A stretch of DNA of 34,705 bases from contig CALHSA010000014.1 in assembly GCA_938038205.1 (NCBI GenBank), forward strand, positions 1 to 34,705, in the 5' to 3' direction. Of the stretch, positions 8,383-27,805 are shown in pieces. Source of the stretch: an uncultured bacterium. GTDB taxonomy: Bacteria > Bdellovibrionota_C > UBA2361 > JANWWW01. A program made the position numbers and the translations under genes. Each line of letters begins with the position of its first letter. The stretch's first letter is position 1. The notes beneath the pieces were generated by a model, which had not been told where the DNA came from, did not search any database, and was given only the letters and a program-made list of their open reading frames with translations.

Positions 8383-10035
8383 TTGAAAAACGTAGATTCA
8401 GCATTCTGGCGTAGATTTAAAGTACTTTTTAAGCTTCTTTTCAAAAGAGAGATAGCAATTTTTTTATTTCCAATAACTGCCTTATTGATTGTCTTTGTAC
8501 TTCTTATAAGCTTTACCTTTGGCCAGCTATCAAGAGCCAGAGGTTTGATAGTTGATTCATTAACTAGGGGTGAGGAAGATTTCTTTTGGTCTTCCCTTAA
8601 ATTTTTTCTTCTCGTCTCTGCCTTCTTAATCACTATTGATGTTTTAAAAAGATTCACTGAAGATCGCCTCGTGTTAAGACTAAGGAGAGCAATCAATATT
8701 TACTTTTTAAGTAAATACTTAAGTTTCAATGTAAGTTACATGATTAATCTAAAAAGGAGTGTGGACAACCCCGATCAACGTATAGAGGAAGATACCAGGA
8801 CATTTTGTGCCCAGACTATCTCATTGTTTCTCATTTTCGTTGGAGCTGTATCTACGCTAATTGTACAAGGCTCAATCTTAATAAAAATGGATCTTGGTTT
8901 GTTACTAGTTGCTATAGCATATGCAATTATCGGATCCACTTTAACTTTTTTGGTTGGGAAAAAATTAATAACTCTTAATTGGCTACAGTTAATGAAAGAG
9001 GCAAATTACAGATTTAAATTAATCAGTTTAAGAGAAAACGCTGAGGCAATTAATTTATTTAGAGAGAATAAAAAGGAGTTAACTCGTGCTAGACAGTATC
9101 TGAGGGAAGCTATAAAAAATTTCATAAATATTATTTCAGTTAATAGAAATTTAGGTTTTGTAACAGGGGCTTATAATAATTTAATTTGGCTAATACCTCA
9201 CTTATTTCTTGCATCCGAGGTTTTTAAGGGTGTTAAAACTTATGGTCAGGTTACAATGGCCACAATGGCTTTTGAGCATTTTCTCAACGCATTAAGTTTA
9301 ATAGTTTCCCACTTTACTAACTTGAGCTCATATGCTGCAGTAGTCAACAGATTGGGTGCTCTACATGAGAGTGTTACTCAAGAATCGAAAAACAATTATC
9401 GAATTCAACCCTCCCAATCTGTTGTTTTTAAAAACGTGACAATCTTTATACCCACTGATAACAAGGAGCTTATATCTAACCTTTCATTTGCTCACACCGG
9501 TGGAGGTATGTTAATTATGGGCGATTCAGGTGTTGGTAAATCAGCAATTATACGAGTAATCGCGGGTATTTGGGATTCGTTCACGGGTACTGTTTTTGCT
9601 CCAAATCCAGAGGAGTGCATTTTTCTACCGCAGAAACCTTACTGTTTTGAAGCATCATTCCTTAGCCAACTTTTATACGGAGTTAAAAAAATTCCACCGT
9701 TAGACCTCGTTTTAAAAACCGCTGAGTTTTGCGGTTTAAATGAAACCATGGAAAAACATGGTGGTTTGAGTGCTATAAGAGATTGGACCAAAGTTTTATC
9801 TTTAGGGGAACAGCAAAAGATTGCTTGGGTAAGGCTTTTTCTATCAAATAAAAAATTTTGTTTTGTAGATGAAATGACCACAGCTTTGGATGTTGAAACG
9901 GAAGATTTATTCTACAAAGAACTTGCTAATCGATCAGCTTTGTGGATCAGTATTGGAGTAAGGGAGAGCTTATTCAAACATCATAAAGTAAAACTTATTC
10001 TGAAAGGAAGAGGAAAATGGGAGCTATTAGATTAG
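8383..10035 (+). CDS. ABC transporter, fused permease-ATPase, SbmA/YddA (ABCD-like) type
   Basis: 550 aa half-transporter that should work as a homodimer in the inner membrane. The N-terminal region carries about six transmembrane helices (starting near 26-46, 70-88, 145-163, 172-192 and 265-300) and the diagnostic sequence NPDQRIEED (129-137) of the SbmA/BacA-YddA-ABCD family. The ATPase domain has Walker A GDSGVGKS (380-387), Q-loop Q417 in LPQKPY, signature LSLGEQQ (472-478) and Walker B FCFVDE (492-497). Family members move peptides, vitamin B12 or fatty acyl-CoA; the substrate here is unknown. The start is TTG at 8383, the only in-frame choice. The 3' end overlaps the exported 612-aa protein by 19 nt. 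Confidence 0.88.
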   Translation: MKNVDSAFWRRFKVLFKLLFKREIAIFLFPITALLIVFVLLISFTFGQLSRARGLIVDSLTRGEEDFFWSSLKFFLLVSAFLITIDVLKRFTEDRLVLRLRRAINIYFLSKYLSFNVSYMINLKRSVDNPDQRIEEDTRTFCAQTISLFLIFVGAVSTLIVQGSILIKMDLGLLLVAIAYAIIGSTLTFLVGKKLITLNWLQLMKEANYRFKLISLRENAEAINLFRENKKELTRARQYLREAIKNFINIISVNRNLGFVTGAYNNLIWLIPHLFLASEVFKGVKTYGQVTMATMAFEHFLNALSLIVSHFTNLSSYAAVVNRLGALHESVTQESKNNYRIQPSQSVVFKNVTIFIPTDNKELISNLSFAHTGGGMLIMGDSGVGKSAIIRVIAGIWDSFTGTVFAPNPEECIFLPQKPYCFEASFLSQLLYGVKKIPPLDLVLKTAEFCGLNETMEKHGGLSAIRDWTKVLSLGEQQKIAWVRLFLSNKKFCFVDEMTTALDVETEDLFYKELANRSALWISIGVRESLFKHHKVKLILKGRGKWELLD

Positions 10036-11855
10036 TAATAATGATTCTTACTATTTTAATACAGGCACAAAAGTCTTTATGCTCTGTTTCTTTTCCATCA
10101 GAACCATACTTAATGAAAGCAAAAAAAATTGTTTTAAACTATTTATCCTTAGACAATACTTTTTTAAACCTTGTTGAAGCGACAAATAATATCGATAAAG
10201 AATTTTTATGTGCTCTTGAACTTTTAAAATTTAATCGAATTGATTCTGAAATACAAAAGAAATTAATAGAGTTTAAACCCAAATCCTGGAACTCTAAGGA
10301 ATTTTTACAGCAAGTTTACAGCAAAATAGCCGAGCTTGTTGATACCACAATTTTAGCAAATGAAATACAGCGTTTAGACTCCCTCAAAGGCAATAATCCC
10401 CCAAAAATAGTAAAAATTTTAAAAGCAATTTACTTAAGAGAATTGAGTGATTTAGAGGTTAAACTCATAGCTGAAATGTTAACTTCACTCCCTTTTTTTG
10501 TAACCTTGAAGTTTTTAGAGGAGGCTAATAATGAGATAAGTAATTTAAACATGTTTAAGATTGTTAATACCTTATCGCATGGCCATCTCTTGGGAGCTAG
10601 CGCAAAGCTAATACAGGCCTATGTTAAGCTTAACTTACAGTGTAATGAACCGAGAGTTGAATTTCCAAAATCCTTGGCATGCGTTAATATTTTTCAGAAA
10701 CCACAAGTGATTTCAGTTGATGACTTTTTGATAGCAACATCGTTGGCACAAGAGCAGAAGCTTGAAACTATACTAAAAAATTATCTAACAGATAAAGAAG
10801 ACTTTAACTGCTTAATCCGAAATATAGCTATGAAATCCCCCCTTCAAGGAGAAAAATGTTTAAAAGCTCTTTATTCTTACGTTTTACCAAATAATTTATC
10901 AGTTAAATTAACTCTTAGTAACTATAAAAATGCATTTAAAAACTTCAAGAAATTACAAAATAGTGAGAAAATTACCCTTTTATTAAATCTTAAGGATCAT
11001 ATTAACAATGACCTTAGTTCAACTCTAACCAAAGTGATTATCTCTGAATCTAACCCTGATGTCTGTTTTACTGCAAGCAAGTTTTATAGTAACCTACTTT
11101 TACCTATCCAAGGCAAACTTACTAAACCCTGTTCAAAGATTTTAATATCCCTGTTAACCTGTTCTGATGTTAAAGAAATTTATAAGCTTCTCAATTTTAA
11201 AGAATTAATGCTCTTATTACCAAATCAATGCTTAATACAGCTTGAGAACTTTACAATACCTTTTCCAAGAAAGTTTTTACGATTTTTAATCCAAAAAGAT
11301 CTCTTAGAAAAAATTGAAACTTGTAAAGTTAACATTACAAATTTCTCTTTGGATACATTTATTCCATTCACCGCCCCAGCCTCAACTAAAACGATAATCA
11401 ATTTGTTGGATAGAGATCTTGCCTACTACCTATTTTCAATCTCTCAAGATGAAACTTTATTAAAAGTGGTAAATATAGATGATAACCTCTTAGAGGCAAA
11501 CTCTATCGAAAATCTAATATCACTATCACCTTTTTTGTCTAAAATTTATCATCCAAAATTAATTTTGGAGTTTGTTCGCAACAAAATTCTAACCTCAAAT
11601 TCTCCTGTTGAATCTAAAGAGATCTTAAAGTTTTTGATTCAATACCTATGTCTTACTAAATACAGCGACTCTAATTTACTGGAGTTCTTAACTGAACTTG
11701 AAAACCAAGTAAAAAATTTTAGAACCTTTGCCCAAATTGTAGGGGTTAGGTATTTACTAATAAATGATCAGGCTTTAAAGAAAAAAATTATACTATACCC
11801 TTTTCGTGAAGATATTGAAGAATTAATGTTATCTTGGTGTGAAAAAATTAATTAG
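10017..11855 (+). CDS. Large unknown exported protein coupled to the ABC transporter
   Basis: 612 aa; I do not recognise it. The N-terminus is a signal peptide (basic start, hydrophobic 5-16, possible cleavage after SLCS at about 23). The rest is almost wholly helical with many Leu/Lys/Asn/Ile and scattered Cys, and no membrane helices. Repeating leucine-rich helical pairs suggest an alpha-solenoid, but I see no clean TPR or HEAT consensus. The ATG at 10017 lies inside the transporter gene (19-nt overlap); an alternative ATG at 10041 follows its stop. Coupling suggests it is a periplasmic partner or cargo-handling factor of that transporter (inference). It ends 8 nt inside the convergent rpsB. 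Confidence 0.72.
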   Translation: MGAIRLVIMILTILIQAQKSLCSVSFPSEPYLMKAKKIVLNYLSLDNTFLNLVEATNNIDKEFLCALELLKFNRIDSEIQKKLIEFKPKSWNSKEFLQQVYSKIAELVDTTILANEIQRLDSLKGNNPPKIVKILKAIYLRELSDLEVKLIAEMLTSLPFFVTLKFLEEANNEISNLNMFKIVNTLSHGHLLGASAKLIQAYVKLNLQCNEPRVEFPKSLACVNIFQKPQVISVDDFLIATSLAQEQKLETILKNYLTDKEDFNCLIRNIAMKSPLQGEKCLKALYSYVLPNNLSVKLTLSNYKNAFKNFKKLQNSEKITLLLNLKDHINNDLSSTLTKVIISESNPDVCFTASKFYSNLLLPIQGKLTKPCSKILISLLTCSDVKEIYKLLNFKELMLLLPNQCLIQLENFTIPFPRKFLRFLIQKDLLEKIETCKVNITNFSLDTFIPFTAPASTKTIINLLDRDLAYYLFSISQDETLLKVVNIDDNLLEANSIENLISLSPFLSKIYHPKLILEFVRNKILTSNSPVESKEILKFLIQYLCLTKYSDSNLLEFLTELENQVKNFRTFAQIVGVRYLLINDQALKKKIILYPFREDIEELMLSWCEKIN

Positions 11856-12690: not shown

Positions 12691-12873
12691 CTATCTCTTT
12701 TTTGATTCAGCTTCGTTTATTGCATCTATTACTGCTCTTCCAGAAATCTTTTCAAAGCTAGAATGCTCTACTGCCGTAGGGGTAGGTGTAGGATTGTTGT
12801 CCGCTCTTTCACCAGTCCCATGTTCCTCCGATACAAGATAAAGTAAAGCGAATAAAATAAATCTAAACCTCAT
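12691..12873 (-). CDS. Small exported protein (60 aa) downstream of the histidine kinase
   Basis: 60 aa: a basic hydrophobic N-terminus (MRFRFILFALLYLVS) that looks like a signal peptide, then a short polar tail with a PTPTPT stretch and a charged C-terminus. It overlaps the end of the kinase gene by 11 nt, as other real pairs in this window do. A cleaved product would be only about 40 residues. There is no homology I recognise. The reading frame also fills what would otherwise be a 200-nt gap, which slightly favours coding. Confidence 0.45.
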   Translation of the reverse strand: MRFRFILFALLYLVSEEHGTGERADNNPTPTPTAVEHSSFEKISGRAVIDAINEAESKKR

Positions 12874-13915
12874 TCTTTCTTAATGTTAGTACAAAAGTCA
12901 CTCCAATATCATTAGTTTGTGCGTCAATACTACCTCCCATTTTCTCTAAAATATTCTTAACAAGGCTCAACCCTAACCCAGTTCCCTCAATCTCACTGTG
13001 AAATCTTGAAAAAGGTTGAAAAAGCTTTGGTAACTGCTCGGGTTTTATACCCTTTCCATTATCAGTAACATACACTTTAACGGTTTTATCTTGCTGAACT
13101 GATTTGATATCCACCATAAGATCTCTTGTTGGTTCCCTAAATTTAATTGAATTACTCAACAGATTTCTAAAGACAGTTTCGAGCAGTTTCTCGTCTCCTA
13201 GGACAAACTCTTCCCCACCTACGATCCTGACCTTTCCATTTATTTGCTCTAATTCTTCACTGAAAAATGATACCACCCGGCTTAACAAACTTTTTAAGTC
13301 CACCTTCGATAGTTGTACCTCTGTATTTATTGTCTTGTAGTATTGCAAGCAGGTTTCAACAACCCTTGATAGTTTTTTTTCGCTTCTTGAGATCCCCTCA
13401 AATATTTCTCTTAAACCTTGCTCTAAAGTCGAAACTGAGATAAAACTTATGTACCCCTTTAGGGTAAATAATGCTCCTTTGATATCATGGCTCAAAATTT
13501 TCGAAAAAAGTTCAAGCTCCTGATTTTTCCTATGTAATTCGTGTTGTAATTTAATTTCTCTAGTTCGATCTGTAAAAATTTCAATTCCGAGACCATCTAC
13601 TCCAAACATTGAAAAACACTCCAACCATATTGGGGGTTCTTTTTTTACATTAAGTAAAACCTTGAAAGGCTCGACTAGTTTTTCAAACCTTAAAAACCTT
13701 TCATACTCACTGGAGCTCAAAGGGAATAAAATATGGGTTTGCTCCTCTACGCTTTTCCCTTTAAGCGAATCGATCCCTATCCCTAGTAATCTCTCCATGA
13801 AAACATTGAGAAAAATTGGCTCCAATGTTGGCAACTTGCGTATGATAATTCCTAATGGAAGATGATTTAAAATTGAAAAATCAAAAGAATCTGCTTTATT
13901 ACTTAGTCCTAGCAT
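12863..13915 (-). CDS. PAS-domain sensor histidine kinase
   Basis: 350 aa, with no predicted membrane segment, so a cytosolic sensor. A PAS-like domain occupies about 12-118. A short coiled linker leads to the HisKA box SKILSHDIKG with phospho-acceptor His143. The HATPase_c domain shows the N box RNLLSNSIKF (250-259), G1 DNGKG (285-289), F box LFQPFSRF and G2 GTGLGLSL (311-318). All catalytic elements are present. No response regulator is adjacent, so its target is elsewhere. Its ATG lies 7 nt inside the HDOD gene, suggesting that the two work in one signalling unit. Confidence 0.9.
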   Translation of the reverse strand: MLGLSNKADSFDFSILNHLPLGIIIRKLPTLEPIFLNVFMERLLGIGIDSLKGKSVEEQTHILFPLSSSEYERFLRFEKLVEPFKVLLNVKKEPPIWLECFSMFGVDGLGIEIFTDRTREIKLQHELHRKNQELELFSKILSHDIKGALFTLKGYISFISVSTLEQGLREIFEGISRSEKKLSRVVETCLQYYKTINTEVQLSKVDLKSLLSRVVSFFSEELEQINGKVRIVGGEEFVLGDEKLLETVFRNLLSNSIKFREPTRDLMVDIKSVQQDKTVKVYVTDNGKGIKPEQLPKLFQPFSRFHSEIEGTGLGLSLVKNILEKMGGSIDAQTNDIGVTFVLTLRKNEV

Positions 13916-14811
13916 GCGTATAAATCGTACATGTTCGTGTAGTTTTCCTCAGCTTTATGAAGATAATTTGAAAGCGACTCAAATTTACTTCTTATAAAAT
14001 CAAATTCCGAGAGTTTCTCCTTTGCCAACGTTTGAAACTTGTAAAATCCTCGCGGGTGCGCAATACCCAGAGCATGGGCTGTTAAATCAGCAACCTTAAT
14101 CAACCACTCAGCTGAGTACTGATTTACCTTGTCATGATGTAATTTTATTGCTTTTTTAAGATCCTCTGTGAAATTCCACTCCTCAGCAAGTAATAAACCA
14201 ACATCAGTGTGATCAAAAGGGAATAAAGAGGTTTCTGCCTCTACAAAACCTGATCTTGAAGCCCTTTCAATAATTTTTTCATAATCTGATCCCAATCGTA
14301 TATGTAAAACTAATTTTCCAATATCATGCATCAATCCAGCTAAGAAAATAAAATCCGGTTCAGCCACATTCAAAATAGAGTTTAGCCATTTTGCTATAAT
14401 TCCTACAGAAATGTTGTGATGCCATAATAAGGCCCTTAAACCATGCGTGTTAGAGAAGAACTCGCTCATATAACTAGAGCTTAAAAAAGTTTTCGCCTCT
14501 GAAAGACCGATTATTACAAGAGCCTCAGGAACAGTTCTGGCTTTTGATCCACGATCAAAATAAACAGAATTTGAGATCTTTATTATTCGAGCACTAAAAG
14601 CCTCATCAGCTTCAATTACCTCCTGAAGATCCTTAAGATCGCTATTTGGATTAGTAGCCACCATGAACGCTTTCTGAGCATTTGTAGGTAAAGGAGGAAT
14701 TACTTTGTTCCCTAAATAATCCATTATTATTCCCCTTATCGAGGGGGTTAGCCTTACATTTGTTTGTTTTTTTTCATCCCCCGTAGAACCAAAAAAAAAT
14801 CGAAAAACCAT
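13909..14811 (-). CDS. HDOD-domain signalling protein
   Basis: 300 aa. After a 35-residue leader the HDOD fold begins (IPPLPTNAQKAF) with the typical LQEVIEADEAFSARIIKISNS segment. It retains an HD pair in LMHDIGK (162-163), though HDOD proteins generally lack the full phosphohydrolase site. HDOD proteins occur in two-component, chemotaxis and motility regulation. It overlaps the histidine kinase gene and is divergent from fliD across 76 nt, a context that fits control of motility or surface structures (inference). The ATG at 14811 is preceded by TTTTAT and TATACT-like hexamers within a few bases. MDYLGNK at residue 30 is an alternative start. Confidence 0.87.
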   Translation of the reverse strand: MVFRFFFGSTGDEKKQTNVRLTPSIRGIIMDYLGNKVIPPLPTNAQKAFMVATNPNSDLKDLQEVIEADEAFSARIIKISNSVYFDRGSKARTVPEALVIIGLSEAKTFLSSSYMSEFFSNTHGLRALLWHHNISVGIIAKWLNSILNVAEPDFIFLAGLMHDIGKLVLHIRLGSDYEKIIERASRSGFVEAETSLFPFDHTDVGLLLAEEWNFTEDLKKAIKLHHDKVNQYSAEWLIKVADLTAHALGIAHPRGFYKFQTLAKEKLSEFDFIRSKFESLSNYLHKAEENYTNMYDLYAC

Positions 14812-14887: not shown

Positions 14888-16261
14888 ATGCCTCAAATTG
14901 GCAGCTTAGATATTGAGAGCCTAGTTTCTAGACTCATCAATGAGAAACTAAAATTAAAAGTTGATCCCCTAAGAAAATTAAAGCAACTTAAAGAAGCAAC
15001 TAGTCAGGCACTAACAAACTTAAAATCTGAGTTTGAGAAACTATCAACTTCTGTTGATGCTTTTAAATCAGCTAACGGAAATGTTATTGAGAAAAAAGCT
15101 ACTTCGTCAAACCAAAACATTCTAACAGTTTCAACGAGCACTATGGCGCAGGTGGGAAGTTACTCGATTCAGGTTACACAATTAGCATCAGGAGGCCAAG
15201 CCACTTCCGGTGGGTATACATCTAAAGAGTCTGCACTATTCCCTACTCTTGATGATAACTTACCTGCCTCAAGTAGAACATTATCCATAACTATTGGTAC
15301 TGGTTCTAATGCAAGCACCTACTCAATAATTTTGGATAGCTCAGATACACTTGAAAGTGTAAGAAATAAACTTGCAAATATAATTCCAAGCAGCAAAGCA
15401 GCCATACAAATTATAAACACTGGGACAGAATCGAATCCTAACTACCGTCTAAGTATCCTGGCTACTAACACTGGGGTTGATTTAGGAACTGTGCAAATTT
15501 CAGGAGGTTCAGCCCCAGAAATTCAATCTTTCATCTCCAACTTTTCCATTCAGTCAGCTCAGAATGCCGTATTTATTATAAACGGCAATCAATTTGAAAG
15601 ATCGTCAAATTCAATAAGTGACGCGATTCAAGGAGTTTCAATAAATTTAATAAGCACAGGTAGCTCTATTGTGAACATCTCAAATGATGTTAGTAAAACA
15701 ATTGAAAAAATAAGAAACTTTATATCAGCTTATAATTCCGTAGTTGATAAAATATCAGAGGGTAACCAGATAAACGTTAATAAAGAAAATTCAGCTGGAC
15801 CTTTAAGGGAGACAAGAGCTGATGAGCTAGCGTTTACATCTATCAGAATGAAAATCTTTGATACGACTATCACAGAAGGATCAAACTCATTCAATTTATC
15901 CTACTTCGGGATTTCAACCTCGAGAGATGGTAAACTGGGTCTGGATGAGCCGAGAATAAGTTACCTAATCAATAACGAACCAGAGAGGGTAGACGCAATT
16001 TTTAAAAAACTAGGAGATGAGGCAGGTAATATTGTTACAGGAATTAAACAGTTTTTCAATTCTTCAAGCCCTTTTGCTAGTAGTATTAATAACCTTAATG
16101 AAGAAATTAGGAATCTAGATGATAGGATTAAAAAAGAGCTCAGCAATTTAAAAGAGGAAGAAAACATGTTAAGGGCTAGTTTTAGCAAAATTACCAAAAT
16201 TCAGAGCAATTTAAATAGGGCCCTTAGTGTCCTGTCAAAAATCACTAACCCTCTTTTTTAA
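14888..16261 (+). CDS. fliD: Flagellar filament cap protein FliD (HAP2)
   Basis: 457 aa, typical length. FliD caps the growing filament and directs flagellin folding. The N-terminal block starts MPQIGSLDIESLVSRLI, followed by a heptad-rich helix (25-70) and the conserved switch to beta structure at STMAQVGSYSIQVTQLAS. The C-terminal block has AIQGVSINLI, NDVSKTIEKIRNFISAYNSVVDKI, the FGISTSRDGKLGLDEPRI segment and a terminal coiled coil (400-450). These match FliD_N and FliD_C order. No fliS, fliC or fliT is next to it, so the flagellar regulon is dispersed. It is transcribed away from the HDOD/kinase pair and may also start the transcript of the following plus-strand block. Confidence 0.9.
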   Translation: MPQIGSLDIESLVSRLINEKLKLKVDPLRKLKQLKEATSQALTNLKSEFEKLSTSVDAFKSANGNVIEKKATSSNQNILTVSTSTMAQVGSYSIQVTQLASGGQATSGGYTSKESALFPTLDDNLPASSRTLSITIGTGSNASTYSIILDSSDTLESVRNKLANIIPSSKAAIQIINTGTESNPNYRLSILATNTGVDLGTVQISGGSAPEIQSFISNFSIQSAQNAVFIINGNQFERSSNSISDAIQGVSINLISTGSSIVNISNDVSKTIEKIRNFISAYNSVVDKISEGNQINVNKENSAGPLRETRADELAFTSIRMKIFDTTITEGSNSFNLSYFGISTSRDGKLGLDEPRISYLINNEPERVDAIFKKLGDEAGNIVTGIKQFFNSSSPFASSINNLNEEIRNLDDRIKKELSNLKEEENMLRASFSKITKIQSNLNRALSVLSKITNPLF

Positions 16262-16291: not shown

Positions 16292-16927
16292 TTGAGATAT
16301 TTACTCTTAGTCGTTATTTTAACTATTCTCGTTATCATACCAAGTCTTAATATCTCGTGCCCTGAGGCTAATTTGACTTTGGGTAACAATCGAATTTTAA
16401 TAATCAGGGGATTAAATGGTTGTTTTGTTATTACTCCCAAAATTAAACGTTTCTATAAAGGGTTAATTCACTTTAGATTCTCTTATTTAGGTAATTACAT
16501 TTTAACTATTACCCCAGTTGTTTATTTAGGAAAGTTTAAAAACTTTGAGGAACCAGAGATAAATGAAGAAAGGCTTAGCTTAAATGCTGTTTTATTAGCG
16601 ACATTCTTAGCAAAGGAGCAACTTGAAAAACTAAACTCAATGAAATCTAAACTTGACCAAGAAAAATTAAAAATTGAGAGTACCTTAAAATTAACATCAG
16701 ATAAAACACAAGAGATTGAGGATAGAGAGCTCAAACAGTTAGATTTATTGACTGACAGGATTTCAAGAACAATAAATAACATTCTACAACTTGAGCAAAA
16801 CTTAGAAGCTTTTATGAGAGTAATGCCAGGGTCACGCAGCCTTCTAACATGGAATAATCTCAGAAAACAAACCTTAAAAACTCCTCCAGATACTATCCAG
16901 ATTTGGCGTGAAAATTTTGTTAATTAA
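16292..16927 (+). CDS. Unknown exported coiled-coil protein A
   Basis: 211 aa. The N-terminal hydrophobic segment (3-20) is a signal peptide or anchor, followed by SCPEANLTLG, a beta-rich part (25-80), then a long charged coiled coil (about 95-175) and a short tail. I do not recognise it. The start is TTG at 16292. The next gene has the same architecture (N-terminal hydrophobic segment, an 'SCPE/SPCV' cysteine, a beta-rich part ending in a conserved-looking Phe-rich strand, a coiled coil), so the two may be distant paralogues that pair. Overlaps it by 20 nt. Confidence 0.65.
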   Translation: MRYLLLVVILTILVIIPSLNISCPEANLTLGNNRILIIRGLNGCFVITPKIKRFYKGLIHFRFSYLGNYILTITPVVYLGKFKNFEEPEINEERLSLNAVLLATFLAKEQLEKLNSMKSKLDQEKLKIESTLKLTSDKTQEIEDRELKQLDLLTDRISRTINNILQLEQNLEAFMRVMPGSRSLLTWNNLRKQTLKTPPDTIQIWRENFVN

Positions 16928-17609
16928 ACTTTTCCTTGTATTTGTAAACTATCTTCTTAGTGAATCTTCTCCGTGTGTTTATATATCGAAGTTAAGTTTA
17001 AAACTAAAACCGGCCTCCGAATTTACCTTCGCTATTATTGGAACTGGTAAAGAAATAACAGTTTTAGGTCCAGAAAGTGTTTTTTTCCTTAAAGAGGCAA
17101 CATATATAGTTTCAAATGAAAAACCTAAAGGTTCAATCTTTTTTTTCTTCAGAAATCATAACGTATTAGAAAAATCAGTTTTAAAAATTGAAAAATTTTG
17201 TCCAAAAATACCAATAATGAATACTTTTTTATCAGAGAAAAAAAAAATTGAAATGATTAACACTGAAATAAAATCAAAAAGGGTAGAACTTGAGAAACTT
17301 CTAAAAGAATTTGAAAAATCAGATCAGCTAAATTTCCTCGTAAATCTAAGAATTTTAAACAACCGTTTTTTAATACTTAATCAAATTCTAAATTACAGAT
17401 ACGAATGGCTTGAGGAAATTAAAAATGAAATAACTAATTTTATCGGTAAACTTGATTTCCCTTCTGGAGAGTCTTTCATCTCTGAAAAACATAAAGAACT
17501 AAAAGCCTTAATATTTTTTTTCCTACGTTCAATTAATCGCAGCCACCTTGAAGCTGCAAAAAAAGCTAGGTATATTCTTGTTGATGAATCCGGAGAATTA
17601 CCTGATTAA
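16908..17609 (+). CDS. Unknown exported coiled-coil protein B
   Basis: 233 aa, starting at GTG 16908 inside gene A. It has a signal peptide or anchor (1-18), then SESSPCVYISKLSL, a beta-rich segment with GTGKEITVLGPESVFFL (46-62), and helical or coiled-coil segments (110-230). The ITVLGPESVFFL part is suggestive of a small beta sandwich, such as the FecR-like periplasmic fold that contains similar strands; this is only a suggestion. It is probably periplasmic. It precedes the 57-aa ORF and the DUF6754 gene in an unbroken plus-strand run, so it may belong to the same membrane system. Confidence 0.65.
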   Translation: MKILLIKLFLVFVNYLLSESSPCVYISKLSLKLKPASEFTFAIIGTGKEITVLGPESVFFLKEATYIVSNEKPKGSIFFFFRNHNVLEKSVLKIEKFCPKIPIMNTFLSEKKKIEMINTEIKSKRVELEKLLKEFEKSDQLNFLVNLRILNNRFLILNQILNYRYEWLEEIKNEITNFIGKLDFPSGESFISEKHKELKALIFFFLRSINRSHLEAAKKARYILVDESGELPD

Positions 17610-17757
17610 GCTAACTGTATTATCAATACTCCCTTCTAAAGAGATTTTAAAAAATTTCTGTAGATGCCTGACTCCATTTTTCTCAGTTTTTTTTGAACCA
17701 AGAAATCTGAGGAAAATCTATTACTCTCTTTCCAAAAATTACGCAAAAAGAATTTAA
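17584..17757 (+). CDS. Small 57-aa ORF between coiled-coil protein B and the DUF6754 gene
   Basis: ATG at 17584 (MNPENYLIKLTVLS); ends with TAA sharing a base with the ATG of the next gene (TAATG). It would overlap gene B by 26 nt. The product has a hydrophobic N-terminal third and a basic C-terminal part. Its pattern (LSILPSKE..., then FF.PRNLRK) vaguely recalls the N-terminus of HtrB/LpxL-type acyltransferases, but it stops after 57 residues, so a remnant or an unrelated small membrane protein are both possible. Coupling to the next gene is the main argument for it being real. A longer version could start at 17548. Confidence 0.4.
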   Translation: MNPENYLIKLTVLSILPSKEILKNFCRCLTPFFSVFFEPRNLRKIYYSLSKNYAKRI

Positions 17758-18524
17758 TGATCCTTGCTCTTATCATTTTTATATTAGCCGTATTTCTACT
17801 TGTTTACTTAAACTTTTCGAATATTAAAATAGAGTTACGTGAACTGCCAATAATACCAAAAATTTTTTATGGAGTATCCTTAGCAGCCGAAAAAGGGAGG
17901 CCCATAATTTTCTCCACCGGACTAACAGGATTAGGTCCATTGTTGTATGCCTGTGTTGAAATTCTTAAAGAGATAGCCCGAAGAAGTGCAAGACTAGATA
18001 TTAAACTCTTAATTCCACAAAATGACCCTCCATCCTTGGCATATGTTAATCAAGCATTACAATCGGTATACGCCTCTGAGGGTAAAATATCAAAATATGA
18101 TCCATTATCCGTAGTTTTTCTCTCAGAAGAGCAGTTTGCATACGCTGCAGGCTACATTGGTCTTTTAAAACGAGAAAATGTTGCAGCTGCATTTTTGTTT
18201 GGATATTTTGCGGGAGAAGCATTAATTCTTGCTGAAAGTGGTAAAAATGTTGGAGCTTTTCAAATTGCGGGCTCAGTCAGTCCAGAACAAGTAGCTTTTT
18301 TTTTAGTTACTTGTGAAGATGTTGCTTTGGGAGATGAATTATACGCTGTTTCGGCTAAGCTGAGTGGCGATAAGAATATTTTATATAACCTTAGAGTTGC
18401 AGATATTCTTAAATTGCTCTGTTTAGTAATCATTTTGATCGGTAGCGTTATTCATACAAAACAAACTGGTTTTCTAGATAAATTTCTTACAATACCGGTT
18501 AAACAAAATGTCCAAAGGAATTGA
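17757..18524 (+). CDS. DUF6754-type membrane protein
   Basis: 255 aa. It has an N-terminal transmembrane helix (1-20), a Rossmann-like soluble domain (about 35-205) and a C-terminal helix (218-236). The sequence matches my recollection of the DUF6754 family: GRPIIFSTGLTGLGPL (47-62), a segment of the form DIKLLIPQNDP, VFLSEEQFAYAAGYIGLL (122-139), FGYFAGEALILAESG and VGAFQIAGS. No enzymatic function is known to me for this family. It is followed, with short overlaps, by three membrane or exported proteins and a MutL-like ATPase, a neighbourhood I also associate with this family in other bacteria. It may form a membrane complex with them. Confidence 0.75.
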   Translation: MILALIIFILAVFLLVYLNFSNIKIELRELPIIPKIFYGVSLAAEKGRPIIFSTGLTGLGPLLYACVEILKEIARRSARLDIKLLIPQNDPPSLAYVNQALQSVYASEGKISKYDPLSVVFLSEEQFAYAAGYIGLLKRENVAAAFLFGYFAGEALILAESGKNVGAFQIAGSVSPEQVAFFLVTCEDVALGDELYAVSAKLSGDKNILYNLRVADILKLLCLVIILIGSVIHTKQTGFLDKFLTIPVKQNVQRN

Positions 18525-19332
18525 TATTTTTTTTAAGCTTACAGTTTTTGTAGTTGCTGGTTATTTTATTTTTGATTTTTTTTACTCATCACTAGTAAGT
18601 GAGGTAACTGTAACAGAGAGAATCACACCAGAACTTCTTACTGGTGCGGCTATCATATCTGGAATGGCCTTTGCGCTTGGCACGTTAAACCTTTTTTTAA
18701 ATCACATAAAGAGAGTATCACTTTTTTTGCGTGGATGGTTTTTTAGCTTAGTTCTTCTACTATCTTTAATCACTACTCTTTCTGCTGGAATCGTTGATTT
18801 AATAAATAATGAGAGAGCAAACTTAACTTTAGCCTTCATTTCAAAGCTACTAACCTCTGATGATCCCGATTATTGGAAAAACAAATTTCCACGCTTAACG
18901 AAAAAGTTAGTCGTCAAGTGTGGCGAGGAACTCCCACGTGAATGCTTGGTTAGAGTTCAAGCAGAGTACCAGGAAAAACTGGCTAAAAAAGGTTTACCGA
19001 ACTTTTTATTTAAATTTTTAACTGACGCTTTTTTTGTACCTCTTGGTCAAGCCATGTTTTCACTTTTAGCTTTTTTTATAGCTAGTGCTTCCTTTAGAGC
19101 TTTTAGGTTTAATAACTATCTATCCTTAGCACTACTATTATCTGCTTTGATTGTTTTACTTGGTCAGAATGGATTTGTAGTTGCGCTTTTTCCTGAATTA
19201 GTAGGATTCAGAACTTGGTTGCTCAACTATGTCTCCAGCGGAGTTTTTAAAGTCATAAATATCAGTGCAATCATTGGGGGTTTAATTATAGCTATAAGGA
19301 TTTGGTTATCTATGGATAAATCATTCAAATGA
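18508..19332 (+). CDS. Polytopic membrane protein of the DUF6754/ASKHA cluster
   Basis: 274 aa with about six transmembrane helices: 8-27, 45-63, 74-94, 176-198, 205-225 and 246-266. A hydrophilic domain (about 95-170) between helices 3 and 4 contains a conserved-looking CGEELPRECLVRVQ stretch with two cysteines. It starts inside the DUF6754 gene (17-nt overlap) and ends inside the next (4-nt ATGA overlap), so all three are translationally coupled. I recognise no transporter motif. The likely role is a structural membrane subunit. Confidence 0.72.
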   Translation: MSKGIDIFFKLTVFVVAGYFIFDFFYSSLVSEVTVTERITPELLTGAAIISGMAFALGTLNLFLNHIKRVSLFLRGWFFSLVLLLSLITTLSAGIVDLINNERANLTLAFISKLLTSDDPDYWKNKFPRLTKKLVVKCGEELPRECLVRVQAEYQEKLAKKGLPNFLFKFLTDAFFVPLGQAMFSLLAFFIASASFRAFRFNNYLSLALLLSALIVLLGQNGFVVALFPELVGFRTWLLNYVSSGVFKVINISAIIGGLIIAIRIWLSMDKSFK

Positions 19333-20168
19333 CTCAGTGGGTAATTTACTCTGGTTTATTGATTGCACTACTATTGCCTATAGTCGGAACTATTGAGTTT
19401 AAAACACCAAGAAACGTAGAGGCGGAAAATTTTTTCCAACTAATTGAAGATAATGTCAAACCTGGAGATATTGTTTTTGTTTCACTTGATTTCGGCCCCG
19501 GAACTGCAGCTGAGAACTTACCTCAAGCAAACACCGTAACTGAGCATCTTTTTCGAAAAGGGGCAAAAATTCTTTTTTTATCCTTCAGTCCACAAGCAGA
19601 ACCGTTTTTATCTGGAGTGCCTACTAGTGTAACAGCTAGGTTAAAAAATGAAGGATTAGACCTAAAGTATGGAGAGGATTATGCAATTGCTGGCTTCAGA
19701 CCAGCGCCAGCAGTATTTTTACAAAGATTAGTTCTCAGTCAAAACTTAGCTGAATCATTAGAGAATGACATTTATGGAACACGAATATCAACTTTACCAC
19801 TAGCCAATAATTTAAAGAGTATTAGAGATGTATCAGCATGGTTCGAGTTTACTGGCTTAGCCGGTATGGTTCAAAACTATATACAATATTTGAATACAGG
19901 AAATCTTGTAAAATTTTTTCATGGATGCACATCTGTGATAGTGCCTGAGGCATACATTTACAAAGATTCGAAACAAATACTTGGCTTGCTGGAAGGTATA
20001 ACAGGTGGTGTGGTTTATGATGAGCTTTTATCAAAAAGATATGAGAATCGAGCTCGTTACAGTGAATTCTCAACTCAATTTCAAAGTTTATCGTTAGGTC
20101 AACTTTATATCCTGTTTCTAATACTGCTTGGAAATTTATTAACCCTCATAAAGAATGTACGAAACTAG
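19329..20168 (+). CDS. Membrane-tethered soluble-domain protein of the DUF6754/ASKHA cluster
   Basis: 279 aa. An N-terminal hydrophobic segment (4-20) and a C-terminal one (about 255-272) enclose a globular alpha/beta domain. The domain begins VKPGDIVFVSLDFGPGTAAE (43-62), then a Rossmann-like alternation (AKILFLSFSPQAEPFL; GLDLKYGEDYAIAGFRP) and ends QILGLLEGITGGVVYDELL. I recall homologues next to DUF6754 genes but know no function. The two anchors place the domain on one side of the membrane, as in the DUF6754 protein. It overlaps both neighbours (4 and 14 nt). Confidence 0.72.
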   Translation: MTQWVIYSGLLIALLLPIVGTIEFKTPRNVEAENFFQLIEDNVKPGDIVFVSLDFGPGTAAENLPQANTVTEHLFRKGAKILFLSFSPQAEPFLSGVPTSVTARLKNEGLDLKYGEDYAIAGFRPAPAVFLQRLVLSQNLAESLENDIYGTRISTLPLANNLKSIRDVSAWFEFTGLAGMVQNYIQYLNTGNLVKFFHGCTSVIVPEAYIYKDSKQILGLLEGITGGVVYDELLSKRYENRARYSEFSTQFQSLSLGQLYILFLILLGNLLTLIKNVRN

Positions 20169-20826
20169 TGTAATAATTCTTGCTGGCTTAGGAACACTTG
20201 CAATTTATTCCTACTTGTTTGGTGAAAATTATGTTTATCGATTTTTTGAACATATATTCATAGGAGTTGCTGCAGCGTATGTTCCGCTTCTAATCATAAG
20301 GGATCAATTGTGGCCCCAGGGTCTTGCATACTTACTCGGATATTCGGAATTAATAGATCCAAATTATCAACCGAATAATTTTAAGTATTTTGTAATAAGT
20401 TTAAGTTTTTTAATTGGTCTTTTCTTTTACTTTAGCTACATATCCAGTAGATTAACGATCTTTACTAAATTCGCAATTCTAATAAGTTTGGCTATATCAG
20501 CGGGCATTAGCATTAAAGGAAATTTCACTGAGCTGTTACCGCAAATTAAATCAGCAATAAAGCCCTTGTGGGATGAATACGAAATCTTATATTCCAATAT
20601 AGTATTTCTGATTTGTATTGTTTTTACGTTTACCTATTTTATTTTCTCGCTAAACACGAAAAAAACTCCAATTCAAGATTGGATGATGCGGATTTCAAAA
20701 GTGCTCTTAATGATCTGTTTCGGAGCTTTTTTTGGCTCAACTATTAGTGCAAGATTAAGCTTACTGGTAGAAAGAGTTTACTTCTTATCAAACGAATGGA
20801 AAAGAGCAATATTAAGTCTATTTTAG
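20155..20826 (+). CDS. Second polytopic membrane protein of the DUF6754/ASKHA cluster
   Basis: 223 aa, about six transmembrane helices (roughly 5-23, 33-52, 78-95, 101-116, 143-165, 180-198) with the loop RDQLWPQGLAYLLGYSELIDPNY after helix 2. I recognise no motif. The ATG at 20155 lies in the preceding gene (14-nt overlap) and its end overlaps the ATPase gene by 31 nt, so it is bound to both by translation. It probably forms the membrane part of the complex with the protein at 18508-19332. Confidence 0.7.
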   Translation: MYETSVIILAGLGTLAIYSYLFGENYVYRFFEHIFIGVAAAYVPLLIIRDQLWPQGLAYLLGYSELIDPNYQPNNFKYFVISLSFLIGLFFYFSYISSRLTIFTKFAILISLAISAGISIKGNFTELLPQIKSAIKPLWDEYEILYSNIVFLICIVFTFTYFIFSLNTKKTPIQDWMMRISKVLLMICFGAFFGSTISARLSLLVERVYFLSNEWKRAILSLF

Positions 20827-22406
20827 CAGTAGATTTTGGATCTACTACTACCAAAGCAAGGCTTTTTAATTATCTGGGAAACTGGAGCCTTTATGGAATT
20901 GGTGAGTCTCCTACCACTGTAGAGAGACCTCATTTAGACGTTAGTATTGGTTTATTCAATGCTTTAAATCAGATTGAAGTTAAAAAAGGTATTAAGCTAT
21001 TCGATGGCGAAAAAATAAATACTGAAAAGTTTTATGCTACAAGCTCTGCTGGCGGAGGACTACAAGTAGTTATATTGGCGCCAACGAAAGAGATTTCAGG
21101 TTTGAGAGCTGAAAAAGCTGCTATGTTAGCTGGAGCAATTGTTCTTAAAACATTCACTTTGGATTCTTTCTCCGACGAAACCCAAATCATCAGAGAGATT
21201 GCAGAGCTTAAACCAGATATAATCATCATTTCAGGTGGTTTCGATGACTCATCGAGCGGGTATGTGGAAAAGTTAGCAGAGTATGTAGCTGCAGCATCAC
21301 CAAAGCCAAGGTTTGGGTATCAAGAAAAGATACCAGTGATTCTAGCAGGATCTCAAAAGTCAAACGAAGTAGCTCAAAAAATTTTACAGAATCATTTCAA
21401 AACTCACGTATTAGACAATGTTTCTCCCTCGGAAAACACAACCAACATCAAACCTTTGATTCAAGCTATCCACGATATTTTTATAGATCATGTTATGTCA
21501 AATGCTCCAGGTTATGACAAAATTCTAAAAATGACATCTGAGCCACCTTTAGCAACGCCAATAGCAGCTGGAAAGATGATTAAATATTGCGCAGAAAAAC
21601 TGAAAACAGCGATACTTGGTGTCGATATTGGAGGAGCAACAACTGATATATTTAGTTGTGATCAAAAAGGCGGAAATTTTTTACGTACAGTTTCAGCAAA
21701 CTATGGAATGAGTTTTTCAGCTACTAACGTTATTTCAGATGCAAGAAAATACCTGGGTATATCCTTCTCTCAAAGCACTCGTTCAGCTTTATTTGATAAA
21801 ATGTTAAGACCTAATTCTCTTCCGGTTACATTGGATGCTTTAAAAAATGAATTAGTTTTAGCAAAATCTGCACTAAGGTTAGCAATTAAGCAACATTATG
21901 CATTTAGAGGTGAGCCTTTAAATCCTCGACTCATAATAGGGTCTGGAGGCGTTATTAGTCATGCACCATTTAATTCTCTAGGAGCGGAAATCCTAATTTT
22001 TGGTTTTGAACCAACTGGAATTGTAGAAATTGTATCAGACAACCTATTTCTTCTCCCACACCTTGGGGCAATATCATTAAATTATCCTGAAGTTGCTATG
22101 ACACTGTTTCTAACAGAGTGCATTAAACCATTATGCATTTATATAAGACCATATTATTTCTTTTCTGTTAGCTCCAACTCTAAGCGAGTTCTTGCTGAGG
22201 TTTCTATAAATTCAAAATATCATTTCGAACTAACAGCTAACAAAAGAGTTTTTTACTCACTTCCAGAGAGTATTAAAGAAATTTCAATTAAAAGGAAATG
22301 GGGAGTTTTTTTCAACGAGCTAAATGCTATAACTTTTTTTCCAAATAGCAAAACTATTTGCCTTGATGGCACGAAGCACTTAGAGATTCAGGATACAGTG
22401 AACTAA
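20796..22406 (+). CDS. MutL/GlmL-type ASKHA ATPase (glutamate mutase L-like)
   Basis: 536 aa. The acetate kinase/Hsp70/actin-type nucleotide fold is clear: phosphate-1 AVDFGSTTTKARLF (11-24), phosphate-2 LGVDIGGATTDIFS (274-287) and adenosine motif LIIGSGGVISHA (379-390). The block ATSSAGGGLQVV (81-92) is typical of the 'glutamate mutase L' family. True MutL/GlmL accompanies B12-dependent glutamate mutase (MutE/MutS), absent here, so the name probably misleads. The C-terminal 100 residues (after about 440) are poorly conserved and beta-rich. The cluster context suggests that ATP binding by this protein regulates or energises the membrane proteins encoded upstream (inference). It overlaps the convergent hflX by 53 nt. 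Confidence 0.83.
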   Translation: MEKSNIKSILAVDFGSTTTKARLFNYLGNWSLYGIGESPTTVERPHLDVSIGLFNALNQIEVKKGIKLFDGEKINTEKFYATSSAGGGLQVVILAPTKEISGLRAEKAAMLAGAIVLKTFTLDSFSDETQIIREIAELKPDIIIISGGFDDSSSGYVEKLAEYVAAASPKPRFGYQEKIPVILAGSQKSNEVAQKILQNHFKTHVLDNVSPSENTTNIKPLIQAIHDIFIDHVMSNAPGYDKILKMTSEPPLATPIAAGKMIKYCAEKLKTAILGVDIGGATTDIFSCDQKGGNFLRTVSANYGMSFSATNVISDARKYLGISFSQSTRSALFDKMLRPNSLPVTLDALKNELVLAKSALRLAIKQHYAFRGEPLNPRLIIGSGGVISHAPFNSLGAEILIFGFEPTGIVEIVSDNLFLLPHLGAISLNYPEVAMTLFLTECIKPLCIYIRPYYFFSVSSNSKRVLAEVSINSKYHFELTANKRVFYSLPESIKEISIKRKWGVFFNELNAITFFPNSKTICLDGTKHLEIQDTVN

Positions 22407-23460
22407 GTATCATTTTTTTTAACTCAAAAATATGTCTCCGTTTTAGTGCGGATACACAAATATTTGGGAAATCGGAGAAAGATCCGTAAACCTCAGGAAT
22501 GCCAATATCAATTTTATTAATTACCACCAAAATTTTATCCTCTGATACTCCTATATCCTTTAGGATGTTTAAAACTTTTTCAAATTTATCTCGAGCACTT
22601 GTATCAGAGGCATCTACAACCACCAAAACAAGATCACTCTCAGCTATCTCCATGATAGTACTTTTAAAAGTTTCGTAAAGTTGAGGTGGAAGATCTCTAA
22701 TAAAACCAACAGTGTCAACAAGCATAAAGCTATGGTAATTTTTCCCATCCAGAGATCCTGAGACAAGCCTCCTTTTTGGATCTAGTGTAGCAAATAGTTT
22801 ATTTTTTACCTCAGCATCCTTCCTACCAAGAATAGCATTAAATAACGAGGATTTCCCAACATTCGTGTAGCCAACAAGCGTCACTATGGGATAAAAGCCC
22901 TTAGGAGGTTTCCCTAGAAGGGATCGTCGTTTTTCTAATAATCTTAATTTATCAGTCAGTATTTTTATCCGCTCTCTACTTCTTCTTCTAGAAATCTCAA
23001 GTTTTGTTTCTCCTGGCCCTCTTCCTCCAATCCCACCTACTAACCTTGATAAACCACTATCTAATTCAGTAAGCTTCGGCAAGTTGTACTCCAGTTGAGC
23101 CAGCTCGACTTTTAATTTTCCCTCAGCACTTTGAGCTCTGCGAGCAAAAATGTCAAGAATTAGCATGTACTTATCTATAACCTTCACTGGTATTCTCGAG
23201 GTAATCTCCTTCCACTGACCTGGCTTTAGAGGGTGATCAAAAACTACAAGCTCAAACCCCTCTCGTTCACAAATCTGAGCAATCTGATCTAATTTACCCT
23301 TACCAACAACAGACTTTGGGTCCATCTTGGCCCTCGTTTGAACTATGATTTTTTCTGGATTTAAACCCTCAGCTAAACATAAAGACTTAGTCTCCTCTAA
23401 AATCTCCAAATCTCTCTTCTTATGCTTTGGATCTATGATCCCTACGATTAAAGTTTTCAA
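22354..23460 (-). CDS. hflX: Ribosome-associated GTPase HflX
   Basis: 368 aa, normal length. HflX splits stalled or hibernating 70S ribosomes under stress. The N-terminal HflX domain ends in the glycine-rich linker GGRGPGETKLE (145-155); a coiled-coil stretch follows; the G domain has G1 GYTNVGKS (197-204), G2 FATLDP (223-228), G3 DTVGF (249-253) and G4 NKID (315-318). The start is TTG at 23460, overlapping the TGA of the AAA gene (TTGA). The last 53 nt, encoding a non-conserved C-terminal tail, lie within the 3' end of the ASKHA gene on the other strand. Confidence 0.95.
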   Translation of the reverse strand: MKTLIVGIIDPKHKKRDLEILEETKSLCLAEGLNPEKIIVQTRAKMDPKSVVGKGKLDQIAQICEREGFELVVFDHPLKPGQWKEITSRIPVKVIDKYMLILDIFARRAQSAEGKLKVELAQLEYNLPKLTELDSGLSRLVGGIGGRGPGETKLEISRRRSRERIKILTDKLRLLEKRRSLLGKPPKGFYPIVTLVGYTNVGKSSLFNAILGRKDAEVKNKLFATLDPKRRLVSGSLDGKNYHSFMLVDTVGFIRDLPPQLYETFKSTIMEIAESDLVLVVVDASDTSARDKFEKVLNILKDIGVSEDKILVVINKIDIGIPEVYGSFSDFPNICVSALKRRHIFELKKMILSSLYPESLSASCHQGK

Positions 23461-24260
23461 TTTAATTTAACTCGATCTAGCAGATCAGATACAAACCTCA
23501 ACTTGCGGTAAGATGAAAAATCAAACGAATCAAAATTGATCCCCTTTCTATATTTAATTTTCATTCTCCATACAAAAGCAATATCATGATTTAATATTAT
23601 ACCATTATCAAACTCAGAGGTTAACTCTGTGTCAAAAAATTCATCAGGTAAATCCTCAACTTCTAATTGATCTTTACTGATCTTTTTTGCCAATGTTATT
23701 ACATCAAAAAAATTCCTTGGCCAATTAAAAAGTTCTAGTATTCTAGCCGCATCTGGGGATACCTTAAGGGATTTTTCAGTAAGATTTTTGTAAACATAAA
23801 CTAACGCTGGGATCACATCCTGAATCCTTTTTTTAAGAGGTGGAAAATAAATTTCATGATATGCCCAGCTTGTAGTAAGCAACCATGAAATAATCTCCTT
23901 TACTTTTTCTCTACTAATTACAAAAATATCGCAAGTCTGGGATTTAATCAGTGTAGTAAAAATCTTTTCCAACTGGCTTGTTAGAGGGGGTTGGTCAAAT
24001 ATGATAACGGATTGTAAATTCTGGCTCTGAATTTTTTGTAACTGGCTATCAAATTCTTTTACTTTTTCAGCATCCTGCCATGAAATCTCAGATATAGATA
24101 TTGGAATTACATGATTATATAAGCAGTATGTTTGAGAGAAAAAGCTTTTTCCTGTAAACTCCGGACCCCAAAGGTAAAAGAAATTTTGGCCTATTCTTGA
24201 AGATTTGATAATTTTATTAAGATTTCTAGTAAATTCACTGTCCCCAGGTATTTCCCTCAC
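23457..24260 (-). CDS. Degenerate sigma-54-activator-like AAA+ protein
   Basis: 267 aa. Walker A is present as GPEFTGKS (32-39), but the Walker B region reads VIIFDQ (85-90) instead of the usual hhhDE, and the sigma-54-contacting GAFTGA loop is absent. The C-terminal part is recognisably NtrC-like: PLKKRIQDVIPALVYVY (141-157) matches the 'LReR.eDI..L' block, and FNWPRNFFDVI (178-188) matches 'y.WPGNvrEL'. No receiver domain is present and there is no clear helix-turn-helix at the end (the last 60 residues are unique). It is therefore probably a non-canonical regulator or scaffold and not a sigma-54 activator. The start is GTG at 24260. Overlaps hflX. Confidence 0.65.
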   Translation of the reverse strand: MREIPGDSEFTRNLNKIIKSSRIGQNFFYLWGPEFTGKSFFSQTYCLYNHVIPISISEISWQDAEKVKEFDSQLQKIQSQNLQSVIIFDQPPLTSQLEKIFTTLIKSQTCDIFVISREKVKEIISWLLTTSWAYHEIYFPPLKKRIQDVIPALVYVYKNLTEKSLKVSPDAARILELFNWPRNFFDVITLAKKISKDQLEVEDLPDEFFDTELTSEFDNGIILNHDIAFVWRMKIKYRKGINFDSFDFSSYRKLRFVSDLLDRVKLN

Positions 24261-26902: not shown

Positions 26903-27805
26903 ATGAGTATAAATTCATTAGAGTTACTGACTTTTCTCCTTCCTCCACAAATTCAATTACTTATGGCTGCAGGTTATCTTGCACAGAAATATTTAAATGG
27001 AGAAGAGATAACCGTAGCCGATGCTCTTTCACTTGGGGTTGGGAGTATTCCTTCAGTAAGAGCAGCTCGTCTGCTAGCAAATCCTATTAACTTAAGAAAA
27101 GTTAAGACAGTTATGGACCGAGAGGGGCCATTAATAAAAAGCATTATTTATAACAAGTACCTTAAAGTTCCTGAAGAGGCCCTATTAAAGTCCGTAAAAA
27201 ATTTAAATAACACCCCTGAGAGTATGACAAGATTTTTCCAAGCCATAGATGAATATGACAAATCGGTATCAAATTTACTCACAGATAAAAGAATTCGCGA
27301 ACAAGTAGCAAAACAGTGCCCTCAATTTGCAAAGCTTAATCCTAGAGAGCAAGAACTTCTTCTGGATAATTTAATAAGAAAAGAGGTAGACGATTCTTTA
27401 AATCGTGTGATAGCAGAAGTAAATTCTAAAAACATTGACCAAAATTTAAAAAAACGAGTAATAAAAAGACTTGAAAAATCGAAAGCTCGAATACGAAAGA
27501 AAAAGAAGGCTAAAAAACCAAAAAATTGGTTTATGAGACAATCCAATCAAAAACGTAGAAACGTGACACATCAACCAGGAGTCCGGGTAGAAGCTGTTAC
27601 GCCAAGTAAAATGAACTCATCAGTGGACCCTAGAACCCCTGATAAAAAACCACATGATCCAGTTCAAGATAAGAGAGTCGAAAGGAATTCCCCAAAGGTA
27701 GACTTGGGTCAACCTAAGACAAAAACTAAAAATCCCAGAAGTTTTCTGGTAAAGGGTATGTTCGGAAAAGCAGAAAATTCGGTGTTTGGAAAAATCTATG
27801 AATAG
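26903..27805 (+). CDS. Unknown basic protein between gatB and gatA
   Basis: 300 aa; I do not recognise it. The N-terminus (1-60) is hydrophobic and helical, with YLAQKYLNGEEITVADALSLGVGSIPSVRAARLL, a pattern reminiscent of membrane-inserting helical hairpins or linker regions in secreted toxin-type proteins, but not diagnostic. Residues 70-190 are helical and charged; from about 190 the protein is strongly basic (KARIRKKKKAKKPK) and then low-complexity and probably disordered (Pro/Lys/Asn-rich) to the end. A nucleic-acid or polyanion-binding tail is plausible. It starts 37 nt after gatB and ends 10 nt before the convergent gatA stop. Confidence 0.65.
   Translation: MSINSLELLTFLLPPQIQLLMAAGYLAQKYLNGEEITVADALSLGVGSIPSVRAARLLANPINLRKVKTVMDREGPLIKSIIYNKYLKVPEEALLKSVKNLNNTPESMTRFFQAIDEYDKSVSNLLTDKRIREQVAKQCPQFAKLNPREQELLLDNLIRKEVDDSLNRVIAEVNSKNIDQNLKKRVIKRLEKSKARIRKKKKAKKPKNWFMRQSNQKRRNVTHQPGVRVEAVTPSKMNSSVDPRTPDKKPHDPVQDKRVERNSPKVDLGQPKTKTKNPRSFLVKGMFGKAENSVFGKIYE

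Follow-up and report, generated by a model that had tools for sequence, protein, structure and literature searches.

GlmL is described as a chaperone that serves the reactivation of glutamate mutase (PMC4682846), and the family PF13941, which is named after glutamate mutase L, carries the mutase-chaperone annotation. For a second family, DUF6754 (PF20539), Pfam states no function. Members of both are encoded in one run of genes on a 34,705-nucleotide (nt) stretch of DNA, hereafter the window, from an uncultured bacterium of the phylum Bdellovibrionota_C (GTDB lineage UBA2361; JANWWW01; assembly GCA_938038205.1, contig CALHSA010000014.1). The window, a single contig, belongs to a genome of 1.2 Mb with 81% completeness. 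Five consecutive genes encode the DUF6754 protein, two polytopic membrane proteins (TM1 and TM2), a tethered domain protein (TETH) and the PF13941 protein (MUTL). Here, the locus is interpreted as encoding a single functional system, probably a complex of the inner membrane that has a cytosolic actin-like ATPase as its switch; this interpretation is given a probability of about 0.6. No mention of DUF6754, PF20539 or PF13941 was found in the open-access papers searched (subscription literature was outside the search), and the set is regarded as a new system for which a complex is predicted.

Results

An almost invariant cassette of DUF6754, TM1, TETH and TM2

A preliminary description, made from the window alone, had proposed that five overlapping genes encode one set, and the coordinates (Table 1) confirmed overlaps of 17, 4, 14 and 31 nt, in gene order. 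DUF6754 scored 189.4 bits against PF20539, above the Pfam cut-off of 27. TM1, TETH and TM2 matched no Pfam or NCBIfam family above cut-off, and Pfam scans of all their members revealed no consistent family. Hydropathy agreed with the architecture that had been described, namely six membrane segments each in TM1 and TM2 and a soluble domain flanked by N- and C-terminal membrane segments in DUF6754 and in TETH.

Within the phylum, DUF6754 was present in 43 of 46 genomes and MUTL in 44 of 46; both were present in all 20 near-complete genomes (completeness of 90% or more, contamination of 5% or less). MUTL occurred nearly always as a single copy, and in the two genomes with two MUTL matches these were split over contigs. 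The order DUF6754-TM1-TETH-TM2 was the same in 19 of 20 neighbourhoods of the phylum, mostly with MUTL next. Since the homologues keep this order, the run of five genes is not a chance series of open reading frames (ORFs). The exception was genome G011 (L045:10621-13154), where the ORFs after DUF6754, of 400, 229 and 213 amino acids (aa), had no match to the TM1, TETH or TM2 profiles, and where MUTL and DOWN, a further component introduced below, lie together on another contig; the cassette of this genome is either very divergent or replaced.

A DUF6754 profile scan of 84,980 species genomes yielded relatives in Binatia, Planctomycetota, Armatimonadota, Poribacteria, Sumerlaeota/BRC1, WOR-3/Stahlbacteria, Zixibacteria and Eisenbacteria; metagenome-assembled genomes of the window's own phylum carry the labels Bdellovibrionales, Deltaproteobacteria or Dadabacteria in that scan. 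TM1, TETH and TM2 followed DUF6754 in 61 of 64 testable loci, i.e., those with more than 3 kb of sequence downstream of DUF6754, in at least nine phylum-level groups including the window's phylum. This bears out the statement in the preliminary description that the core set is conserved in distant phyla. Moreover, the whole four-gene cassette was found in tandem, in two or three copies, in WOR-3 and Zixibacteria (L118, L119, L123, L128, L131), which argues that it is a unit; the repeats suggest specialised or hetero-oligomeric versions. Thus, DUF6754, TM1, TETH and TM2 are an almost invariant cassette.

MUTL, DOWN and SMALL are inherited together with the cassette

Two further genes accompany the set. 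In most relatives, the gene for DOWN, which is about 370 aa long and contains a barrel-sandwich hybrid domain, comes after MUTL, and that for SMALL, of about 90 aa, before DUF6754. Of the 46 genomes of the phylum, 43 encode DOWN, including that of the window, where it lies on a separate contig (G000:C29), as it does in the closest relative. Outside the window's phylum, full-length MUTL (more than 800 bits) was present in 37 of 39 DUF6754 genomes, often not adjoining the cassette; such unlinked MUTL genes often lie within a SMALL-MUTL or SMALL-MUTL-DOWN cluster. As SMALL accompanies either half, the cassette and the MUTL half are tied together.

The patchy distribution in Planctomycetota allowed the association to be counted in 294 genomes. 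For MUTL, only matches well above generic relatives were considered, and six genomes with a best score below 160 bits were excluded. Both DUF6754 and MUTL occurred in 69 genomes and just one of them in 10 (DUF6754 only in 6, MUTL only in 4), with neither in 215. The corresponding counts (both, first only, second only, neither) were 67, 8, 2 and 217 for DUF6754 and DOWN, and 68, 5, 1 and 220 for MUTL and DOWN. By comparison, the likewise patchy flagellar gene FliD, used as a control, showed no association with DUF6754 (38 both, 37 DUF6754 only, 110 FliD only, 109 neither; P=1). In 26 of the 69 genomes with both, DUF6754 and MUTL were separated by over 250 kb or lay on separate contigs, some of these contig splits being possibly assembly breaks. 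Simple hitch-hiking is made less likely by the different locations of the genes and by the flagellar control. The scattering of homologues without co-occurrence, named in the preliminary description as a finding that would speak against a common system, did not occur. The coupling of the set is well supported.

MUTL, DOWN and SMALL are assigned to the same system as the cassette, since the first two occur with it in linked and unlinked positions alike and SMALL accompanies either half. The five genes originally taken as the core all belong to it, and DOWN and SMALL, which are members as well, had been missed. It follows that the 57-aa ORF directly before DUF6754, described earlier as a lineage-specific part, may instead be a core component. 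Its stop codon shares 1 nt with the DUF6754 start (TAATG), it occupies the position of SMALL and it matched the SMALL profile weakly, with 10.2 bits (10.6 bits for the corresponding ORF of G001; tiny search database). It is thus probably a shortened SMALL subunit.

In many relatives, two exported coiled-coil proteins, UP1 and UP2, are encoded before SMALL, in the place taken in the window by A1 and A2. Similarity of A1 and A2 to UP1 and UP2 was not significant. The sole homologue of A1 was found in G001 (phmmer, 2e-10), and since its match to the UP1 profile reached an hhalign probability of just 31%, A1 is equated with UP1 by position and architecture only. For A2, no sequence relative was detected, and it is a counterpart of UP2 by position only.

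The barrel-sandwich domain of DOWN raises the question of a redox or ion-translocating complex of the Nqr/Rnf kind. The DOWN protein of the window genome matched NQRA_N above the cut-off, and its relatives gave weaker matches to RnfC_N; furthermore, TM1 and TM2 are six-helix proteins with conserved glutamate and histidine residues, which are invariant in TM2. Such a complex is nonetheless highly improbable. Barrel-sandwich domains are common to many unrelated proteins, no iron-sulphur, flavin or NADH domain was found in DOWN by Pfam, and the alignment members of TM1 and TM2 had no Rnf or Nqr family among the matches listed. A sequence search of the PDB with the DOWN profile returned just weak lipoyl, TamB or KOW-like matches.

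A role as mutase chaperone is unlikely to explain MUTL

MUTL covers the full PF13941 domain (277.5 bits against a cut-off of 27; model positions 1-448 of 450). The phosphate 1, phosphate 2 and adenosine motifs of the ASKHA (actin/Hsp70-like) fold, DxGSTTTKA, DIGGATTD and GSGG, were invariant in 13 aligned members. By family and motifs MUTL is thus an ASKHA-fold ATPase, as had been proposed, and it is predicted to bind and hydrolyse ATP.

The family name suggests that MUTL could be an ordinary reactivating chaperone of a B12-dependent mutase, acting on glutamate mutase or methylmalonyl-CoA mutase, and that its linkage to membrane genes is incidental. A possible client exists, as the window genome encodes a methylmalonyl-CoA mutase (PF01642) and a B12-binding domain, and 40 of the 46 genomes of the phylum encode this mutase. 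However, MutE (PF06368) was above cut-off in none of the 46 genomes, the 81%-complete window genome included; the only two matches were weak, both in G004, and one of them lay inside a methylmalonyl-CoA mutase match. MUTL also stayed below all three NCBIfam cut-offs of the GlmL type, with 161.7 versus 475 bits for GlmL, 150.2 versus 600 for the ornithine version and 120.9 versus 204 for the GlmL family. Three genomes that are 91-92% complete (G007, G011, G014) retain DUF6754, MUTL and DOWN without any match to PF01642. Methylmalonyl-CoA mutase is, in addition, served by its own G-protein chaperone (MeaB/MMAA), and MUTL tracks DUF6754, linked or not. A mutase chaperone is therefore very unlikely here, and as far as the genomes tell, MUTL does not appear to serve glutamate mutase in this lineage. 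The earlier judgement that the mutase-chaperone annotation does not fit was upheld in this respect, with MutE in 0 and MUTL in 44 of 46 genomes. The supporting statement that mutE, mutS and B12 enzymes are lacking held for mutE (mutS was not searched as a family of its own); for the B12 enzyme it held within the window only, given the methylmalonyl-CoA mutase in the genome.

Actin-like cytosolic proteins such as PilM, FtsA and GspL offer a further comparison, in which MUTL would be a static scaffold for a structural inner-membrane platform rather than a motor. The platforms of type IV pili and type II secretion provide precedents, and the exported coiled-coil pairs before the cassette in the window's phylum would fit. 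In the neighbourhoods that were read, however, no pilin or secretion genes were found, and Pfam scans of the proteins of the set gave no match to PilM, PilN, PilO, PilP or GspL. The full conservation of the nucleotide motifs also speaks against this reading, although it is compatible with a scaffold. Overall, a static scaffold is unlikely.

Eisenbacteria and Planctomycetota encode MUTL paralogues of 824-879 aa (L200:3523-6162, L201:3275-5749, L202:2001-5017); L202 also has a second MUTL gene, after which comes a DOWN-like gene. In Planctomycetota, the low-scoring MutL relatives that were inspected are surrounded by other metabolic genes, as judged by eye, and two of them (L197:3266-6039, L199:3711-7167) adjoin genes resembling the PrpF and isocitrate-lyase families, possibly a further MutL context.

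DUF6754 and TETH probably face opposite sides of the membrane

The preliminary description had listed the two soluble domains together. Ahead of its first membrane segment, DUF6754 is nearly devoid of positive charges, and 5-9 of them follow close after that segment, so the domain is expected in the cytosol. In WOR-3, Poribacteria, Eisenbacteria, Zixibacteria and Sumerlaeota, an N-terminal signal and a fibronectin type III-like extension precede the membrane segment, which likewise puts the domain on the inside. In TETH, positive charges were found before the first and after the last membrane segment in nearly all members; the domain should thus be periplasmic. Charge and hydropathy of TM1 fit an N-in/C-in arrangement with a variable insert of 75-150 aa outside. 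As members of families of soluble proteins, MUTL and DOWN are assumed to be cytosolic. The two tethered domains hence probably lie on opposite sides of the membrane.

The AlphaFold models, both confident, of TETH (predicted local distance difference test (pLDDT) score of 93.2, predicted TM-score (pTM) of 0.90) and DUF6754 (pLDDT 90.4, pTM 0.84) shared the order of elements, i.e., membrane helix, helix, six strands alternating with helices and membrane helix; in the first half, these elements also lie at similar positions. Foldseek searches of the PDB with both models gave no match at E<=0.001; the listed matches were generic Rossmann-like folds with low TM-scores of 0.14-0.37 by query. Sequence searches of the PDB with the DUF6754, TETH, TM1, TM2 and MUTL profiles yielded nothing significant. 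Sequence homology between DUF6754 and TETH is not claimed, the hhalign probability being about 21% at most and below 6% in most settings. The in-register alignment of the two scored 25.9, compared with a maximum of 22.7 in 40 block shuffles, and also exceeded two reversals. Remote paralogy of DUF6754 and TETH is noted as a lead only.

In the TETH alignment, D54, E62, D147 and Q216 were invariant and H73 nearly so. The acidic and histidine residues among them, together with the E32-H33 pair of TM2, may form part of a site for a ligand, a proton or a metal. The polar residues conserved in each soluble domain would also suit a membrane-bound enzyme, e.g., of envelope lipid or isoprenoid metabolism, with TETH and DUF6754 as catalytic Rossmann-like domains and MUTL as activator. 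Some neighbours are suggestive in this regard: in WOR-3 (L177, L178, L182, L184), SMALL-MUTL follows a glycine dehydrogenase subunit gene and mostly precedes plsX (also fabH in L182), and in Stahlbacteria (L188, L193) MUTL-DOWN adjoins ispH, so that a link to lipid or isoprenoid synthesis is possible. Yet these neighbours are lineage-specific and ordinary housekeeping genes, the fold searches returned just the generic, non-significant matches given above, and an enzyme has no obvious need for one cytosolic and one periplasmic domain of this kind. An enzyme is for these reasons fairly unlikely.

Surroundings of the locus

A scan of the locus for promoters and terminators gave no more sites than in shuffles. 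The PADLOC models of anti-phage defence matched none of the locus proteins, and the sole PHROGs match was a weak one of MUTL (19.8 bits) to a partition-protein family. The flagellar cap gene FliD (14888-16261) lies directly upstream of A1; the same arrangement was seen in G001 and in none of the 19 other neighbourhoods that were read. The 3' end of MUTL (22354-22406) overlaps a convergent gene for an HflX-like GTPase on the opposite strand by 53 nt. Further upstream (12863-14811, minus strand), a histidine kinase gene overlaps a gene for an HDOD-domain protein, probably forming a signalling pair. Three ORFs of the window, at 10017-11855 (612 aa), 23457-24260 (267 aa) and 26903-27805 (300 aa), had no Pfam match at E<=0.001.

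Table 1. Genes of the locus, with positions in the window.
Feature	Position	Strand	Description
A1	16292-16927	+	ORF; N-terminal membrane segment or signal, small domain, coiled coil; position of UP1 of relatives
A2	16908-17609	+	ORF; exported coiled-coil protein; position of UP2 of relatives
57-aa ORF	17584-17757	+	Probable shortened SMALL subunit; directly before DUF6754
DUF6754	17757-18524	+	PF20539, E=8e-56; membrane segment, alpha/beta domain (predicted cytosolic), membrane segment
TM1	18508-19332	+	Six membrane segments, predicted N-in/C-in; predicted periplasmic insert between segments 3 and 4; homologous across four-gene cassettes
TETH	19329-20168	+	Membrane segment, Rossmann-like domain (predicted periplasmic), membrane segment; predicted N-in/C-in
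TM2	20155-20826	+	Six membrane segments; invariant E32-H33
MUTL	20796-22406	+	Predicted cytosolic ASKHA-fold ATPase; PF13941 family, E=2e-82; nucleotide-binding motifs intact

Discussion

The conserved cassette and its co-inheritance with MUTL, DOWN and SMALL favour one functional system, and the following mode of action is proposed. TM1 and TM2 would lie between a DUF6754 domain that faces the cytosol and a TETH domain that faces the periplasm. On the cytosolic side, MUTL would bind and hydrolyse ATP and attach to the complex, probably through DUF6754, while DOWN and SMALL would serve as adaptors. The cycle of opening and closing of MUTL could then be passed via the membrane part to TETH and, in the window's phylum, also to the two exported coiled-coil proteins. 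In this way, an envelope process such as transport or assembly might be driven or gated.

A number of points weigh against this interpretation. The P values of the co-occurrence take no account of shared ancestry, and five Planctomycetota genomes have DUF6754 but neither MUTL nor DOWN. The neighbouring genes give no consistent functional hint; in other phyla they are ordinary metabolic genes that differ by lineage. The topology is a prediction from hydropathy and charge, and the fibronectin match of the DUF6754 extension lies under the Pfam cut-off (E=2e-4 and 5e-3 in the two best). Contact between the parts is inferred, as are the mechanism and the cargo.

A bolder version, put forward only tentatively, sees a previously undescribed transmembrane machine shared by at least nine phylum-level groups, which presumably have envelopes with two membranes. 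Domains with the same order of elements, perhaps remote paralogues, would lie on opposite faces of the inner membrane, and the actin-like ATPase would power signalling or transport between them.

The findings matter for three reasons. First, a system without known function is shared by all 20 near-complete genomes of one phylum and also occurs in many other phyla. Second, a large branch of a family annotated as mutase chaperones appears to play a different role, so that many of these annotations may be incorrect. Third, the system is patchy in Planctomycetota, a group with culturable species.

Among described proteins, the window's DUF6754 protein is a member of its Pfam family, and MUTL shares the PF13941 ASKHA family, the full domain and the nucleotide-binding motifs with GlmL/MutL of B12-dependent glutamate mutase and ornithine aminomutase. 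It differs from these in its scores below the GlmL-type cut-offs, its length of about 600 aa in most members and the company of SMALL, DOWN and the membrane cassette in place of a glutamate mutase partner gene. DOWN has the same kind of small barrel-sandwich domain as NqrA and RnfC, whereas their cofactor or NADH domains are absent from it, and Rnf/Nqr membrane subunits are absent from the set among the matches listed. In function, PilM-PilN-PilO-PilP of type IV pili and GspL-GspM of type II secretion offer an analogy, combining an actin-like cytosolic protein with inner-membrane proteins and periplasmic coiled coils. The set, however, has no sequence match to them, no pilins or secretin were seen nearby, and while those platforms are built from single-pass proteins with ferredoxin-like domains, the set described here consists of polytopic proteins and Rossmann-like domains.

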